This document shows, piece after piece, positions 1,352 through 8,284 of a DNA stretch of 12,476 nucleotides. Made by a program: the position numbers and the translations under genes. The number at the start of each line of letters is the position of its first letter. Within the stretch, counting starts at the first letter, position 1. The notes beneath the pieces are model-generated. The model was not told the origin of the DNA. It worked only from the letters and a program-made list of their open reading frames with translations, and searched no databases. The stretch covers positions 1 through 12,476 of the forward strand of contig JABUSX010000216.1 of the NCBI GenBank assembly GCA_021442545.1, read 5' to 3'. Origin of the DNA: Eubacterium sp. (GTDB taxonomy: Bacteria; Bacillota; Clostridia; Lachnospirales; Lachnospiraceae).

Positions 1352-1438
1352 TACCTCTGCCGCTGTTTTCTCAGCCCTCCGGGACTGCCTCTGCCGCTGC
1401 TTTCTCAGCTCTCCGAAATCGCCTCTGCCGCTGCTTCT
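1352..1438 (-). repeat. Imperfect 33/34-bp tandem repeat across the stop codon of the 849-aa gene
   Basis: Read on the minus strand, the core GCAGCGGCAGAGG recurs in three successive units: about 1438-1406 (33 nt), 1405-1372 (34 nt) and 1371-1352 (partial). Each unit begins AGAA. The first two units share CGGAG and end in GCTG; the partial third stops before that stretch. The first unit encodes the Ala/Glu-rich end of the upstream protein. The second unit has one extra A, and the stop codon (1405-1407) falls at the junction. The repeat therefore fills most of the intergenic gap before asnS. Confidence 0.7.
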
Positions 1439-3954
1439 ACAGCTGCTGTCTCTGCGGCTGCCTCTGCGATCTGTACGCTTGCGGGCTTGTTCTGATAGGT
1501 ATAGAAAACATACCCTGCCTGAAGGAATCTGGCGTCCGCCTTTTCGCGTTCGATCTCTTTGAGCTCACCGGTGCCGTCATAATACATGATCACCTCTTCC
1601 GTGTAGCCCGCCAGCAGCCAGCTGCCGCCCGGAACAGCCGCATAAACGGCATGTCCGCGCGAGATCGGATAGAACATACCCGTCGTCATCGTACCGCTGA
1701 AATTGAGCAGTTCCTTATCACTGCCGATCGCATTCGCAAACGCTTCCACGCTGCCGGAGCAGCCCGCTGCCATCAGCTGATCTGAAATAGAAGCCCTGTC
1801 GATAATATAAGATGTCGGCCAGCTTCCGCGCTGGAACACATAACGCTGCGCATCATCCAGTACGCCGCCGTAGGTATCAAACGCCGTTTCCACAGCCGCA
1901 CGCCGATCCGTTTCGATCTCCAGAAGTTTTCCGTACGAATAGATCGTATACTGCCCGGTGATGTTCTGCGGCCACTCAAGAACCGTCTCGACATCGTCAC
2001 GCTTGCCTTCGAACGTTGCTCTCCGCACCTTCGGATCCTTCTGAAGAAGAATATCGTTAAAGGCCAGCCAGACCTGCTCCTCCGTTCTCGAATTGCTGAT
2101 CGGCTTGATCGTAATGTTTTCTATTCTCGCCTCGTTGTTCCGGATCTGTTCCACGCCGTTATCCACATAACCAAGATCCGTCTTCTTTGCCGTGTTCAGC
2201 AGAAGGCTTTCCTGATCGATCCACGCTGCGGTGACATAAACCTCACTCTTGCTGAATTCCTTCAGCAGATTACCGCCTTCATCCTCGATCTTCACCGTAT
2301 ACATGCCGCCGACTGCACCGTCATTCGTGTATTCGATATCCGTCTCTCTGACGAAACCATACACAACATCTTCCCCGATGAAGCCGCAAAGCGTGACCTT
2401 TTCTCCCTGTGAAGCCGTGATCTCACGTTTTTCCCCTGTGGCCAGATTCCGGATAAATAAAGTATCCGCCAGGGCTCCGTCTTCGGTATTCGTCCAGGCG
2501 ACCTGCCTCTGCCCGTCAGAAGCCTTAAAAGCCGTTTCCGGTATATCCGTTTCCAGAACTTCAAAACTTCCGCTCCCCATATCGACCCTGCAGAGCTGCT
2601 GATCGATAAACAAATACATTTCATTGTTGTTTCCCACATAGGAAAGCCTGGATACATTACGCTCCATCCTCTCCCAGCTCTGGTTCAGAGGAAGGAAAAA
2701 CGCTTCTTTTACCTGATTTGCCGCGTAGGAATAATTGCATACGGAAATTCCCATGCGGCCTTCATGGCTGCCCGTGGGAATATAGCCGTAAACCACAAAG
2801 GAAACATCACCTTCATCCGTGATCCCGCCGAGCCGGATCCCGTGGCGCACAAACTCCGTCCGGATATCCAGATCCGGCGTTCCCGTCTCATCATTATTCG
2901 TTCCCCGGAAGGTAAAGATCTGTGTCGCCTCGTCCTTCATGGCATCGTAAGACCAGATTTCGCCGTTCACGACAAAGGCCGTTTTCGTGCAGTCCGAGTT
3001 TTCCACAAACTGCACATTCCGATCCTGGATACCCAGATTAATGGAAGAATCTCCGACGATCGGAATCGTCGGATCGAAGATCTGCGACGTATCCCTGCTG
3101 AAATTACGGACAATCAGGCTGCCCTTGTATTCCGTGATCCGGAAATACTCGTCCACGGTATAATACTCGTCTTTCATATCAGACGTCACAGCCTTGATCA
3201 CATACTGCTGGCGGATACCGATGTTGACATCGTTGATCTCCAGGATCGTCGGAGCCTTCTTCTGAACGATCGTCGGATTCATTTCCGCCCACGAAAGCAT
3301 GTCCGAACTGTTTGCAAGCGTGATATGAGCCAGCGTGGTATTCGACTCCGCCAGATCCGGTTCCAGATAGATGGCCAGATCGGAAGCCGCTACCTTATCG
3401 CAGGCTTTTTCAATAAAACGATTGGAAAACTCAAGATAGGTACCGATATTTCCGGCTCCATACTGAACAAGACGGGTATAAAAATGGACCTTGCTGCCGG
3501 TTCCGAGCGTTACATCAAAACGGAGAAGATATTCCTGCTCACTGTGGATGCTGTTGGTCCGCAGCGTAAAGTCTGCGGCAAGCATACCATTCGTTTCACT
3601 GAGATTCGTAAGCTCACCGTTCTCGATCAGAAGATTTTCTTCCGGTGAGATCACTTCATACATGATCTGTGCAATGGTATTCGCCTGCGGATCGATCAGA
3701 AACCGCAGATTTCTCCCTACCGTAACCGGAGTCAGACTTTCCCTCACGGTTACTTCCTGAAGCTCCTGCCGGTAAGCCGTCATCGGATTGACGGTAAGGC
3801 CCTCAACCTCCATATAGGCAACCGGAAGCGTCGGGCCGGTAATCGACTCCACGCTCTGGCTTTCCTGTTTGTTCAGCTGTATGGAAAAAAACGCGGTACT
3901 GCCGATAAAAACAATCAGCAGAATAACTATCCGTCTTATCAAATTCTTCGTCAT
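1405..3954 (-). CDS. Large membrane-anchored extracytoplasmic protein of unknown function (849 aa)
   Basis: I do not recognise a named family. The protein has a basic N-terminus (MTKNLIRR) and one hydrophobic segment at about residues 8-26 with no clear cleavage or lipobox site, so it is probably an N-terminally anchored protein whose bulk lies outside the membrane. Residues about 80-290 are beta-rich. Residues about 300-640 contain recurring short strands such as GEIWSYD, NEMYLFID and DTLFIRNLATGE, which suggest a beta-propeller-like fold (inference). Residues about 725-815 contain ISRGHAVYAAVPGGSWLLAGYTE and MYYDGTGELKEI. These resemble the distal half of C39-like peptidase domains, but with Gly-Ser-Trp where those have Gly-His, so any such domain would be inactive (weak inference). 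The tail (about 827-849) is Ala/Glu-rich. The start is chosen because it begins the anchor. There is no good Shine-Dalgarno sequence, but a promoter lies immediately upstream, so the mRNA may be leaderless. asnS follows after 109 bp. Confidence 0.85.
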   Translation of the reverse strand: MTKNLIRRIVILLIVFIGSTAFFSIQLNKQESQSVESITGPTLPVAYMEVEGLTVNPMTAYRQELQEVTVRESLTPVTVGRNLRFLIDPQANTIAQIMYEVISPEENLLIENGELTNLSETNGMLAADFTLRTNSIHSEQEYLLRFDVTLGTGSKVHFYTRLVQYGAGNIGTYLEFSNRFIEKACDKVAASDLAIYLEPDLAESNTTLAHITLANSSDMLSWAEMNPTIVQKKAPTILEINDVNIGIRQQYVIKAVTSDMKDEYYTVDEYFRITEYKGSLIVRNFSRDTSQIFDPTIPIVGDSSINLGIQDRNVQFVENSDCTKTAFVVNGEIWSYDAMKDEATQIFTFRGTNNDETGTPDLDIRTEFVRHGIRLGGITDEGDVSFVVYGYIPTGSHEGRMGISVCNYSYAANQVKEAFFLPLNQSWERMERNVSRLSYVGNNNEMYLFIDQQLCRVDMGSGSFEVLETDIPETAFKASDGQRQVAWTNTEDGALADTLFIRNLATGEKREITASQGEKVTLCGFIGEDVVYGFVRETDIEYTNDGAVGGMYTVKIEDEGGNLLKEFSKSEVYVTAAWIDQESLLLNTAKKTDLGYVDNGVEQIRNNEARIENITIKPISNSRTEEQVWLAFNDILLQKDPKVRRATFEGKRDDVETVLEWPQNITGQYTIYSYGKLLEIETDRRAAVETAFDTYGGVLDDAQRYVFQRGSWPTSYIIDRASISDQLMAAGCSGSVEAFANAIGSDKELLNFSGTMTTGMFYPISRGHAVYAAVPGGSWLLAGYTEEVIMYYDGTGELKEIEREKADARFLQAGYVFYTYQNKPASVQIAEAAAETAAVEAAAEAISES

Positions 3955-3989: not shown

Positions 3990-4004
3990 CCCTGCGCCCG
4001 ACAA

Positions 4005-4038
4005 CAACGGCCCGTCATGTCATCATGACGAGCCGTTG
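4005..4038 (-). terminator. GC-rich hairpin at the 3' end of the structured RNA candidate
   Basis: CAACGGC (4005-4011) pairs with GCCGTTG (4032-4038), and CGTCATG (4013-4019) pairs with CATGACG (4024-4030), with one mismatch between the two helices and a 4-nt loop (4020-4023). On the minus strand it is followed by TTGTCGGG, which is only a poor U-tract. It may be a weak intrinsic terminator, an RNA-stabilising 3' hairpin, or a processing site between the RNA and the 849-aa gene whose promoter begins 16 bp further on. Confidence 0.5.
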
Positions 4039-4407
4039 AACACGATCTTCATTATTCAGTTTTCAATATCTGTCTTTCCAGCTTACAAGCTTTCTCTGTT
4101 CAAGACAACATCTGCAAAATTTATATCCCTGCTCGTATGAATACTTCAGATATCCTCTGATACTCTACTTAGAAAGATTCGTGAAATCTTTTCGGATGAA
4201 CCGCTGCACCGCTTTCTCGTCACGGCTTCCTCACCTGCCCCCGACATGCTGTTTCTTTACACAACACACCGGGCTGCCTCCTCGGCTCCATCCTGCGGTA
4301 ATATTCAATATGAGCTGACTGCCTTCACTTACCTTTCATACCCTCCGCTTTAGTGTGCGGATCTTCTCTTCACTGTTGTTTATGAAAGGTCTTTCTCGCG
4401 GGGACTG

Positions 4408-4458
4408 CTATTCAGTACCGCCCTCATATTGAAGATTGGCGCCCGTTAACACTTCCAT
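4408..4458 (-). CDS. Possible 16-codon leader peptide inside the structured RNA
   Basis: ATG at 4458 opens a 16-codon frame (MEVLTGANLQYEGGTE, stop at 4408-4410). A perfect AGGAGGT (4473-4467) lies 8 nt before it, the best possible Shine-Dalgarno spacing and stronger than for several real genes in this window. Codons 9-14 cover the 5' strands of the crossing helices (4433-4423 and 4421-4416), so a ribosome on this frame would break them. It may be a regulatory leader peptide, or the AGGAGGT may be a structural element of the RNA. The frame continues upstream without a stop to an ATG at 4635, but that lies upstream of the -10 box, so the longer form is not expected to be made. Confidence 0.35.
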   Translation of the reverse strand: MEVLTGANLQYEGGTE

Positions 4459-4625
4459 TGGACCGTACCTCCTCTCTTCAAATTTAGCCCGAACCCTGTT
4501 CGATCTGACCGGTTCCCGATCCGCCTTCCGCGTCTGCCGCTTCCTTCGGATCCTCCTGGACTGCTCCGGTCTCCCGGGCCCTGCCTGATCTTCCTTCAAG
4601 CTATGTCTTGTTTGTTTGTAAACGC

Positions 4626-4654
4626 ATCTTAACATTATAAATATTATTTGTCAA
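4626..4654 (-). promoter_or_regulatory. Strong sigma-A promoter with UP element for the structured RNA
   Basis: On the minus strand: consensus -35 TTGACA (4654-4649), a 17-bp spacer and -10 TAAGAT (4631-4626), preceded by an extended -10 TGT. The predicted start is near 4619. Directly upstream is a run of A-tracts (about 4655-4700 on the plus strand reads as T-tracts), resembling the UP elements of rRNA-type promoters. No convincing protein start follows within normal leader distance, which argues for an RNA product. Confidence 0.72.
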
Positions 4655-4917: not shown

Positions 4918-6237
4918 TTATGCCTTTTTGGCTTTTTTTCCTGGTATGATAAAAATGAAAATGAGAACGCTGATCAGAAGAAAGAAGGGATAAAACAGCT
5001 TCGGTATGATTGAAAACGCGGATATATTGTAACCAAGTGCCGTCGTCGCCGATATGGCCACGAGCAGCTGTGCGCCGTAGGGAAGTATGCCCTGGACGAT
5101 GCAGGAAAAAACATCCAGAATAGACGCTGTCTTTCTCGGGGAAATTCCGTATTCCCGCGACATTTCCTTCGCAATCGGGTTTGCCATGACGATCGCCACC
5201 GTATTATTGGCAGTGGCAACGTCCATGATTCCCACCAGGATTCCCATCCCGAACTGAGCCCCCTTCTCCCCTTTGAACACTTTTTTGATCACATTGAGAA
5301 GGTAATCAAATCCCCCGTATTCCCTGATAAGAGCGCAAAGTGCCGCTACAAGGATCGTTACCATGGCTGTCTCAAACATACCGGCAACACCGGCTCCCAT
5401 ATTGGTGACAAGTTCAAATGCGGAAGCACTTCCCGTAACAAGCACGATGATTGATCCGGATACGATGCCGATCAGCAGCACGACAAAAACATTTAACCCG
5501 ATGATGCCTCCGCCAAGTACCAGAATGTACGGAATGATCTGCACGAGGTTGTATTCGGGAAGATCCAGAACGAAACCGTCCGACCCTTTGGAGATAATCA
5601 GGATCACAATCACGGAAGCGATCGCAGCCGGAAGCGCAATCGCAAAATTCTCCCGGAATTTATCCTTCATTGCACAGCCTTGTCCGTTGCAGGCCGCAAT
5701 CGTCGTGTCCGAAATAAAAGACAGATTATCTCCGAACATAGATCCGCCGATGACAGATGCGATGCAAAGTGCCATATCAAAGCCGGACACTTCCGAGACA
5801 GCTGCGGCGATCGGGGTAATGAGCGTGATCGTTCCCACGGAAGTTCCCATTGCGAGCGAAACAAAACATGCCGCCCCAAACAGAACGATTACCGCAAACC
5901 GTGCCGGTATGATGGAAAGCAGGAAATAGGCAACGCTTTCGGCACTGGATCTTCCTACCGCTCCGACAAAGATTCCGGCTGTCATAAAGATTAGAAGCAT
6001 CGTGATAATATCCTTGTCGCCGACGCCTTTTGCCATCAGCTCCAGCTTCTTGTCAAAGCTGACTTCCCTGTTCTGAAGACTGGCCACAAGGAGCGCACAG
6101 AGAAATGCAACCACAATGGGAATGTTGTAAAATCCCATCGGTATTTTCAGCACATATTCAAACAGAATGCCAAGCCCGAGATATAAAACCAGAAACACGA
6201 CCACAGGCAGCAGCGCCGCCGGATTTCCCTTTTTCAT
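4918..6237 (-). CDS. nhaC: NhaC-family Na+/H+ antiporter
   Basis: This is a polytopic inner-membrane exchanger expected to swap cytoplasmic Na+ (or a related cargo) for protons. The 439 residues are almost wholly hydrophobic, with about 11-12 membrane segments and a basic C-terminus (GKKAKKA). Family-type sequences are GTSVGT (131-136) in a broken helix, GGSMFGDNLSFISDTT (164-179) with conserved Asp/Ser/Thr, and their second-repeat counterparts DVATANNTVAIVMANP (339-354) and QGILPYGAQ (382-390). Together these match the two inverted halves of the NhaC/ion-transporter superfamily. The length suits the shorter NhaC members. The start is supported by AGAGGAAAG about 8 nt before the ATG. Exact substrate cannot be read from sequence: some relatives exchange malate/lactate or amino acids, so the symbol denotes the family. 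It is preceded by a likely promoter of its own; no clear terminator follows. Confidence 0.88.
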   Translation of the reverse strand: MKKGNPAALLPVVVFLVLYLGLGILFEYVLKIPMGFYNIPIVVAFLCALLVASLQNREVSFDKKLELMAKGVGDKDIITMLLIFMTAGIFVGAVGRSSAESVAYFLLSIIPARFAVIVLFGAACFVSLAMGTSVGTITLITPIAAAVSEVSGFDMALCIASVIGGSMFGDNLSFISDTTIAACNGQGCAMKDKFRENFAIALPAAIASVIVILIISKGSDGFVLDLPEYNLVQIIPYILVLGGGIIGLNVFVVLLIGIVSGSIIVLVTGSASAFELVTNMGAGVAGMFETAMVTILVAALCALIREYGGFDYLLNVIKKVFKGEKGAQFGMGILVGIMDVATANNTVAIVMANPIAKEMSREYGISPRKTASILDVFSCIVQGILPYGAQLLVAISATTALGYNISAFSIIPKLFYPFFLLISVLIFIFIIPGKKAKKA

Positions 6238-6432: not shown

Positions 6433-6792
6433 CTATTCCTCCAGTATCTGAAATTCCAGGAAATCGAACGGTATGCTCTCTCCCACAAAATGATCCTGTG
6501 TGAACCGTGTCTTTTTATAGCGCTTAAAATCCCGTATATTCGAATCGAGCCATACGGGCACCCCAAGATCGTTCTCCCGGCAGATCTCTTCCAGCGCGTG
6601 CAGGATCTTGTGCGTACGCGTATCGTCACTGTCATCCGTGACCGTCATATCATTCAGCATCCTGTTATCTTTGAACAGTTTTCCCCAGAACCGCATTCCT
6701 GCCTCCACATTTTTGATCGCATTAATTACGGCGGTCTTATCTATCGGGCTCCAGGCGGTTCCCGCTTTGCCCGATACCGCGATAACGCACAT
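6433..6792 (-). CDS. Conserved-looking small protein of unknown function (119 aa)
   Basis: No family is recognised with confidence. It is a soluble protein with no signal peptide or membrane segment: a hydrophobic N-terminal strand (CVIAVSG), a helical middle with a charged DDSDDTRTHKILHALEEICREN stretch (53-74), and a C-terminal part with RYKKTRFTQDHF (91-102) and an acidic hydrophobic end (FDFLEFQILEE). I have an impression of similar small Clostridia proteins with a RF-Q-D-F...DFLE end, but cannot name a function. The frame is real by its length and composition and because it fills the gap between rplL and the antiporter. The ATG at 6792 has only a poor Shine-Dalgarno match (GTGAG directly before it), so the start is uncertain. 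It lies 31 bp after the rplL terminator and may depend on read-through or on an unrecognised promoter. Confidence 0.7.
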   Translation of the reverse strand: MCVIAVSGKAGTAWSPIDKTAVINAIKNVEAGMRFWGKLFKDNRMLNDMTVTDDSDDTRTHKILHALEEICRENDLGVPVWLDSNIRDFKRYKKTRFTQDHFVGESIPFDFLEFQILEE

Positions 6793-8093: not shown

Positions 8094-8133
8094 GATCAGG
8101 TTTCCTCCTTATTTAATATTTCGTATCGACCAA

Positions 8134-8250
8134 AGAAAAACCCCGTGTGAAGACACGGGGGCAAAGTTCCGGAATCATTTCGGAATATGCATCCTCGGCA
8201 GGCGCTGCGCTTACGTCCGTACGGACACCTGCTGTCTTCGGGTGATACGC
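8134..8250 (-). promoter_or_regulatory. L10 autoregulatory leader with attenuator
   Basis: The leader contains the L10-site signature: GAAGACAGCAGG, then an 8-bp helix (GCAGGTGT with GCGCCTGC, including two G-U pairs) and CTGCCGAGG, much like the known rplJ leaders of E. coli and Bacillus. An inner GTCC/GGAC hairpin lies within it. Downstream is an intrinsic terminator: CCCCGTGT/ACACGGGG (8160-8153 with 8148-8141) followed by TTTTTCTTT. GAAGACA (8239-8233) is exactly complementary to TGTCTTC (8155-8149) in the terminator arm and loop, so it can act as an antiterminator. Expected logic (known for Bacillus): L10-L12 binding favours the terminator. Confidence 0.85.
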
Positions 8251-8255
8251 GGTGA

Positions 8256-8284
8256 ATTTTAGCATGCCTGGTGACGACTGTCAA
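8256..8284 (-). promoter_or_regulatory. Strong sigma-A promoter of rplJ-rplL
   Basis: On the minus strand: consensus -35 TTGACA (8284-8279), a 17-bp spacer and -10 TAAAAT (8261-8256) with an extended -10 TGC. It lies between the rplA terminator and the L10 leader, so rplJL is transcribed separately from rplKA here. Confidence 0.85.

Follow-up and report, generated by a model that had tools for sequence, protein, structure and literature searches.

What kind of genetic element occupies a 963-nt gap between two genes (1405-3954 and 4918-6237) in the 12,476-nt stretch of DNA analysed here (termed 'the window'), and what might it do? A first-pass annotation had described a gap of about 960 bp without a convincing protein gene, and had placed in it a large, highly structured RNA. 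The description of the gap holds: a single open reading frame (ORF) of at least 60 aa lies fully inside it (4408-4635, minus strand, 75 aa), and that frame has no Pfam match. The features of the locus are collected in Table 1. The RNA is almost certainly a new class of large structured bacterial RNA, and it contains a conserved translation start, a property that bears directly on how it might work.

Table 1. Positions, strand and basis of the features described in the text.
Feature	Positions	Strand	Detail or basis
849-aa protein gene	1405-3954	minus	without Pfam or NCBIfam match
Na+/H+ antiporter-family gene	4918-6237	minus	Pfam
Promoter	4626..4654	minus	-35 TTGACA 4654-4649; 17 nt; TG-extended -10 TAAGAT 4631-4626; A/T-rich DNA upstream
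The RNA, about 620 nt	4000..4619	minus	promoter and 3' hairpin positions
5' hairpin GCUUGA-AGGAAGA-UCAGGC	4583..4601	minus	same loop on other stems in L012, L098, L109, L138
Shine-Dalgarno GGAGGU	4467..4472	minus	
16-codon ORF MEVLTGANLQYEGGTE	4408..4458	minus	spans 5' strands of P1 and pseudoknot
P1	4305..4432	minus	4432-4423 pairs with 4314-4305, 10 bp
Pseudoknot helix	4295..4421	minus	GCGGUA 4421-4416 pairs with UACCGC 4300-4295
P2	4331..4390	minus	4390-4381 pairs with 4340-4331; nested hairpin within 4362-4344
Possible long-range pairing	4171..4396	minus	AGAAAG 4396-4391 with CUUUCU 4176-4171; weak
H1, 13-bp hairpin, conserved 8-nt loop GUAAAGAA	4240..4273	minus	relatives
Hairpin capped by GACGAGAAA	4208..4226	minus	enrichment in RNA regions
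H2: UCUUUCUAAG, stem, ACGAGCAGGGAU	4125..4177	minus	two anchors
3' marker ACUGAAUA (AUUGAAUA in relatives)	4053..4060	minus	comparison with relatives
G/C-rich 3' hairpin, probable terminator	4005..4038	minus	U tract poor

Whether the element belongs to a known class was addressed with Rfam 15 (4227 models, which we take to include OLE, ROOL, GOLLD, RNAIII, RNase P, tmRNA and 6S RNA), searched with the window at E values up to 1 and up to 10 and with 20 homologous loci at E values up to 0.5. For the interval, at E values up to 10, only two human-type models appeared, far below their cut-offs (SNORD126, 19.6 against 55 bits, and GNAS-AS1_1, 16.9 against 45 bits); the 20 homologous loci returned only two microRNA models, again far below cut-off. 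A known class was rejected for lack of any Rfam match to the window interval or to these loci, as the first-pass annotation had anticipated. Elsewhere in the window, at 8126-8259 on the minus strand, a ribosomal protein L10 leader (RF00557) scores 53.9 bits, above its cut-off. Replacement of 6S RNA was considered and rejected, 22 of 25 genomes having a 6S-like match of their own; that of the window's genome reaches 40.4 bits, below the cut-off of 46.4. Searches of the open-access literature returned no report of this RNA; it may overlap one of the candidates of PMC8040213.

How widely the element occurs was followed by several kinds of search. A DNA search of 41 genomes gave matches in nine, including the window's own, all within Lachnospiraceae. 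Two covariance models were then applied to larger samples of genomes, for which stricter filters were used: R1, a model of the core built from 7 sequences and containing P1 and P2, and R2, built from 40 sequences. R1 matched 33 of 397 sampled Lachnospiraceae genomes and R2, on the same sample, 82 (about a fifth), so that the distribution has to be taken as a lower bound. The R2 matches fell in 69 of 320 good-quality genomes and in 68 of 334 genera, with one match in each of 81 of the 82 positive genomes and two in the remaining one (G113, where L223:417-614, on G113:C7, stands beside L070, on G113:C12). In a set of 40 genomes made up of the window's own and its nearest relatives, 13 had an R2 match, among them 12 of the 16 belonging to the genus. 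In samples drawn from the order and the class, which overlap each other and for which the share of genomes outside Lachnospiraceae is not shown, R2 matched 4 of 196 and 2 of 245 genomes and R1 matched 1 of 291, every match lying within Lachnospiraceae.

An exact pattern, in which the 5' strands of P1 and the pseudoknot are fixed and no 3' strand is included, retrieved 48 records from a genome collection. Among their titles are Blautia hansenii, Blautia parvula, Lactonifactor longoviformis and a large number of Lachnospiraceae assemblies; in some cases the title gives no more than an order or a phylum, and one names Thermoflexaceae. To judge by such titles, the RNA family has so far turned up only in Lachnospiraceae, mostly gut bacteria. 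The exact pattern had no match in viral contigs, and blastn found none in phage or plasmid records; within the records so searched, a phage or plasmid origin was rejected. Genome G023, in which R2 has no match, carries a short form (L008:1490-1900) that seems to keep the promoter, a motif resembling the ribosome site and the AUUGAAUA 3' hairpin, without the pseudoknot core.

The comparative work drew on 68 loci, gathered by R1 or by the exact pattern, and on 43 held-out sequences, comprising a subset of the R2 matches together with L171, L185 and L186. The near-consensus extended -10 promoter of the first-pass annotation was located on the minus strand, where it matches the consensus at 10 of 12 positions and has A/T-rich DNA upstream; it predicts a transcript start near 4619, and the same scan gave 6 promoter-like sites versus 3.3 in shuffles. 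A promoter-like site (score of at least 10) lies upstream in 65 of the 68 homologues, versus 63 of 1360 shuffled upstream stretches, and in 40 of the 43 held-out sequences, versus 53 of 860. Terminators were found by script at 43 of the 68 loci, and the 41 loci at which both ends were found give lengths of 475-1050 nt (median 850). Ahead of the 3' hairpin AUUGAAUA is conserved, and in 37 of 68 loci it is followed 17-36 nt on by a G/C-rich motif, a spacing that the script itself imposes. The window's own 3' hairpin has a tail poor in U and failed the terminator script, which leaves its exact 3' end uncertain; the ends proposed earlier (4000..4619) agree with the comparative ones. The minus strand folds to -192.1 kcal/mol, versus -166.7 +/- 7.2 for 20 shuffles (z -3.5, none as good). 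The plus strand likewise folds well (z -4.4), and the strand call therefore rests on the promoter, the ORF and the conserved 3' hairpin. Judged from these signals, the RNA would be made from a strong promoter of its own and, in most relatives with enough sequence, would end at its own terminator.

Is the fold conserved by selection on pairing? At its center lies a compact core, composed of P1, an H-type pseudoknot and P2, that displays strong compensatory change. In an alignment of 66 sequences (A3), made without reference to structure and omitting L132 and L138 (where the sequence ends early), the three helices are paired in 91.6% of cells and 19 of 26 pairs have changes on both sides; 129 cells are changed on both sides, where shuffling gives 37.6 +/- 5.1 and sliding of the partners no more than 45, these controls being run on related rows with no correction for phylogeny, here and in the held-out set. 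P1 is paired in 99.5% of cells (both-side changes in 6 of 10 pairs) and the pseudoknot helix in 98.7% (3 of 6 pairs), while the first six pairs of P2 are paired in 82-94% and its distal four in 62%; because the homologues were gathered by R1 or the exact pattern, these frequencies carry a selection bias. The 43 held-out sequences, none identical or near-identical to any row of A3, are paired across P1 and the pseudoknot in 97.8% of cells, with 33 double-change cells, where shuffling gives 7.9 +/- 2.5 and sliding no more than 8. The pseudoknot helix is paired there in 98.8% of cells (both-side changes again in 3 of 6 pairs), and all six of its pairs are kept in 38 of the 43. Because this alignment (A6) was fitted to the P1 of R2, P1 leans to structure in it; the pseudoknot, which is absent from the structures of both R1 and R2, does not.

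The comparison of homologues and their covariation, which the first-pass annotation had suggested, thus gave strong compensatory change in both alignments: helices are conserved, their partners change together, and no known class matches. As for the individual helices that it had named, the 11-bp helix (P1, 10 bp of which are conserved), the long hairpin (H1, 13 bp) and the G/C-rich 3' hairpin (4038-4005) stood up, and the 10-bp helix with a nested 5-bp hairpin (P2) did so in its outer part, its distal four pairs being the less regular ones. The 7-bp helix said to close the structure near both ends was not recovered, the minimum-energy fold closing with 4 bp. Among the G/C-rich helices of the 5' third, conservation was examined only for the hairpin at 4601-4583. 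The possible, weakly supported long-range pairing of AGAAAG with CUUUCU was scored in 29 sequences, where 2.8% of shuffles are as good; compensated variants occur in L012 and L128.

The RNA also contains something that the first-pass annotation had not mentioned: a ribosome-binding site followed by an ORF of 16 codons (4458-4408). In homologues, GGAGG or a variant of it lies a few bases ahead of the start codon, which is AUG in 46 of the 68 loci, UUG in 17, GUG in 4, AAG in 1 and CUG in none; in the 43 held-out sequences, where the script required N-U-G and a purine and left N free, the counts are AUG 20, UUG 22, GUG 1 and CUG 0. The distance from start codon to a conserved CAA is 24, 27 or 30 nt in 62 of 68 loci and a multiple of three in 36 of the 43. 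The ORF, as a rule 15-36 codons long, extends for 13-20 codons in 49 of 68 loci and stops sooner, within 12 codons, in 13; the corresponding held-out figures are 14-36 codons in 38 of 43 and 2-4 codons in 5. Its frame is usually open: 7 of 62 sequences have an in-frame stop in the variable stretch, versus 25.6 expected from shuffles (reached in 0 of 2000), and a subset chosen without the pattern has 4 versus 12.0 expected (P 0.001), both tests ignoring relatedness. Counted per codon, stops number 7 of 455 in frame, and 15 of 393 and 25 of 393 in the other two frames. A pairing of the Shine-Dalgarno GGUA with the 3' strand of the pseudoknot, produced by RNAalifold from 7 sequences, was rejected, since one of the seven breaks a pair and GGAGGUA is present only in 31 of 68 loci. 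In L066 the leader contains, before the ribosome site is reached, about ten copies in tandem of a unit of 8 nt that resembles CCAAAGTA.

Does selection act on the peptide? Close pairs of the first set have a pN of 0.079 and a pS of 0.181 (52 non-independent pairs), which hints at some peptide selection. Two groups with longer ORFs (16 and 9 sequences, all from the held-out 43 and picked by eye) give pN 0.52/pS 0.37 and pN 0.32/pS 0.29 before the QY codons, and pN 0.29/pS 0.21 and pN 0.24/pS 0.23 well after them; in these groups pN falls below pS only in the QY stretch, where helices constrain the letters. With a frame that is usually open and a peptide that is mostly not conserved, ribosome loading seems to outweigh the peptide, and we read the pattern as probable selection on initiation, and usually on an open frame, rather than on the peptide. 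With early stops in 13 of 68 and 5 of 43 sequences, the ORF is not needed at full length, although an initiating ribosome bound there might be. To go by the conserved start codon, the spacing and the depletion of stops, the start site is very probably used by ribosomes, and an RNA that carries a conserved site for translation initiation is not purely non-coding.

Outside the core, the RNA carries a set of hairpin modules. In 54 of 68 loci the H1 loop (GURAAGAA) follows the ribosome-binding site at a distance of 150-450 nt, and 2 of the 14 loci where it was missed are cut short; pairing is 96-100% at the four stem positions nearest the loop, and over all 13 positions 588 of 702 cells are paired, versus a shuffled mean of 416 and maximum of 446. 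The loop recurs with a stem of at least 3 bp in 31 of the 43 held-out sequences. GACGAGAAA has one site in each of 36 of 68 RNA regions (70,453 nt) versus 4 sites in 392,868 nt of same-strand flanks; 32 of the 36 are closed by at least 3 bp, and they are placed either before the mini-ORF or after the core. The held-out set has it in 19 of 43 regions, twice in one. Both anchors of H2 are found in 30 of 68 loci, where 146 of 180 cells are paired (shuffled mean 123, maximum 132); the left anchor was not found in 27 of 68 loci (2 of these cut short) and the right in 11. In some members of the family, H1, H2 or GACGAGAAA is missing or was not found. The downstream modules keep their loops while the stems change, as is often so for binding sites, and they may contact partners in this manner. 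The many GGA motifs in the RNA also prompted the idea of a CsrA 'sponge'.

The genes around the RNA vary. Of the 68 loci, 30 have an aconitase gene immediately upstream and 28 have a gene for an RluA-type pseudouridine synthase downstream, on the same strand; both are found at 15 loci, at least one adjoins the RNA at 43, and neither is found at 25, the window among them (1.2 kb of upstream sequence being present in 60 of the 68 loci and 1.7 kb of downstream sequence in 40). The remaining downstream genes scanned belong to unrelated Pfam families or to none, and at 4 loci the downstream gene is convergent, an exchanger gene on the opposite strand. Variation of this kind favours a stand-alone RNA that acts in trans, and the locus fits a chromosomal one; a role tied to the aconitase or RluA genes, given the 43 loci, may also exist. 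In members of the genus such as L013, L016 and L017, the RNA is flanked by an aconitase gene and a homologue of the 849-aa gene. The antiporter-family gene of the window occupies the aconitase position of several genus members, a local rearrangement, and a 119-aa ORF (6433-6792, minus strand, without Pfam or NCBIfam match) resembles short ORFs by the aconitase gene in L013, L016, L017 and L019. The 849-aa protein has homologues in 26 of 41 genomes searched and represents a conserved, unnamed family.

How does this RNA compare with those already described? ROOL and GOLLD RNAs are located in prophages or phages, often by tRNA genes; OLE RNA is adjoined by the gene for an OLE-associated membrane protein; and RNAIII and other dual-function RNAs unite structure and a short ORF in one stable RNA. 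Unlike ROOL and GOLLD, the present RNA has no tRNA gene near it within the window, no pattern match in viral contigs and no blastn match in phage records. No OLE-associated membrane protein name was found among the Pfam matches of the window's proteins and 30 neighbours, for which general Pfam models only were used. Like RNAIII, the RNA is predicted to combine structure with a short ORF; unlike RNAIII, it has no Rfam match, its ORF threads a pseudoknot and its peptide is mostly not conserved. A passage of PMC12286853 describes OLE, ROOL and GOLLD as large ornate RNAs, with a proposed link to RpsU for OLE and a ribosome pull-down for GOLLD. Common to those RNAs, as described there, and to this one are a length of hundreds of nucleotides, a pseudoknotted fold and the absence of a known enzyme role (PMC12286853); the embedded translation start, and the lack of a covariance match, set this one apart. 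Structured upstream-ORF motifs such as odc1, as presented in part of PMC8632094, likewise place a short ORF and its start codon within or next to a conserved fold. They sit upstream of a consistent main ORF, whereas no gene consistently follows the present RNA, which is also several times their size. We regard it as a new class in the loosely defined group of large ornate RNAs, its variant feature being the embedded translation start.

What, then, might such an RNA do? We envisage an ornate, stand-alone RNA with a core gated by ribosome loading, a reading that, taken whole, could equally well hold or fail. The ribosome-binding site and start codon precede the core, and the short ORF runs into the 5' strands of P1 and of the pseudoknot. 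As the ORF (4458-4408) covers those strands, a ribosome on it and a closed core should be mutually exclusive: a loading and translating ribosome would hold the core open, and where translation of the ORF failed the core would close, such that the RNA would switch between ribosome-bound and folded states. The folded RNA would then act in trans through its H1, GACGAGAAA and H2 modules, as a binding scaffold or a regulator. Action in trans is the likely part of this scheme; ribosome gating of the core is a close call that leans slightly against. Points that speak against the scheme are the early stops in part of the family, the pN below pS of the close pairs, the aconitase or RluA gene adjoining at 43 of 68 loci, the incomplete occurrence of H1, H2 and GACGAGAAA, and the poor U tract of the window's own 3' hairpin.

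Several other explanations must be set against this scheme. The start site might only protect the 5' end of a structured RNA that acts in trans by itself, with a bound ribosome conferring stability and translation proceeding without any gating of the fold. The structural evidence is the same for this explanation as for the gated core, and a start codon that is kept even with an ORF of 2-5 codons is what it would predict; stabilisation alone, however, would not need an ORF that usually spans the 5' strands of P1 and the pseudoknot and is depleted of stops, and we consider it unlikely while giving it real weight. The conserved ORF, together with the low pN relative to pS in close pairs of the first set, could instead be those of a dual-function RNA of the RNAIII type, in which a functional peptide is joined to an RNA that base-pairs with mRNAs. 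That is improbable for a peptide that varies widely and is truncated in many members, and for which pN in the two longer-ORF groups is not below pS outside the helix-forming codons.

A long attenuator or leader, controlling the next gene in cis, is more improbable again. A leader ORF followed by a terminator does resemble an attenuator, and in 28 of 68 loci the gene that follows, on the same strand, is of RluA type, but the other downstream Pfam families are unrelated, the downstream gene is the opposite-strand exchanger in 4 loci, and 25 of 68 loci, including the window, have no adjoining aconitase or RluA gene; as a general rule, a cis-acting leader was rejected on these counts. Finally, size and architecture recall OLE, ROOL and GOLLD, and one might suspect a known class in diverged form, or a fold due to chance; with covariation far above both controls and no Rfam match for the window or 20 homologous loci, either is scarcely credible.

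If the reading of a ribosome-gated core is followed to its end, the RNA would represent a new kind of device: a large RNA, acting in trans, that depends on a ribosome loading at a start codon set into its own pseudoknotted core and for which the peptide hardly matters. Such an RNA would dock on ribosomes or read the cell's state of translation and relay it through movable hairpin modules. We put this forward tentatively, as a possibility against which the balance at present lies, and its claim to be categorically new stands or falls with the gating. Large structured RNAs of bacteria fall into few known classes, and for two of these, ROOL and GOLLD, a passage of PMC12286853 calls the functions unknown. 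The record of a Blautia hansenii strain carries the present RNA, which makes it directly testable, and with a translation start woven into a conserved pseudoknot, the link from large ornate RNA to ribosome becomes concrete and testable.
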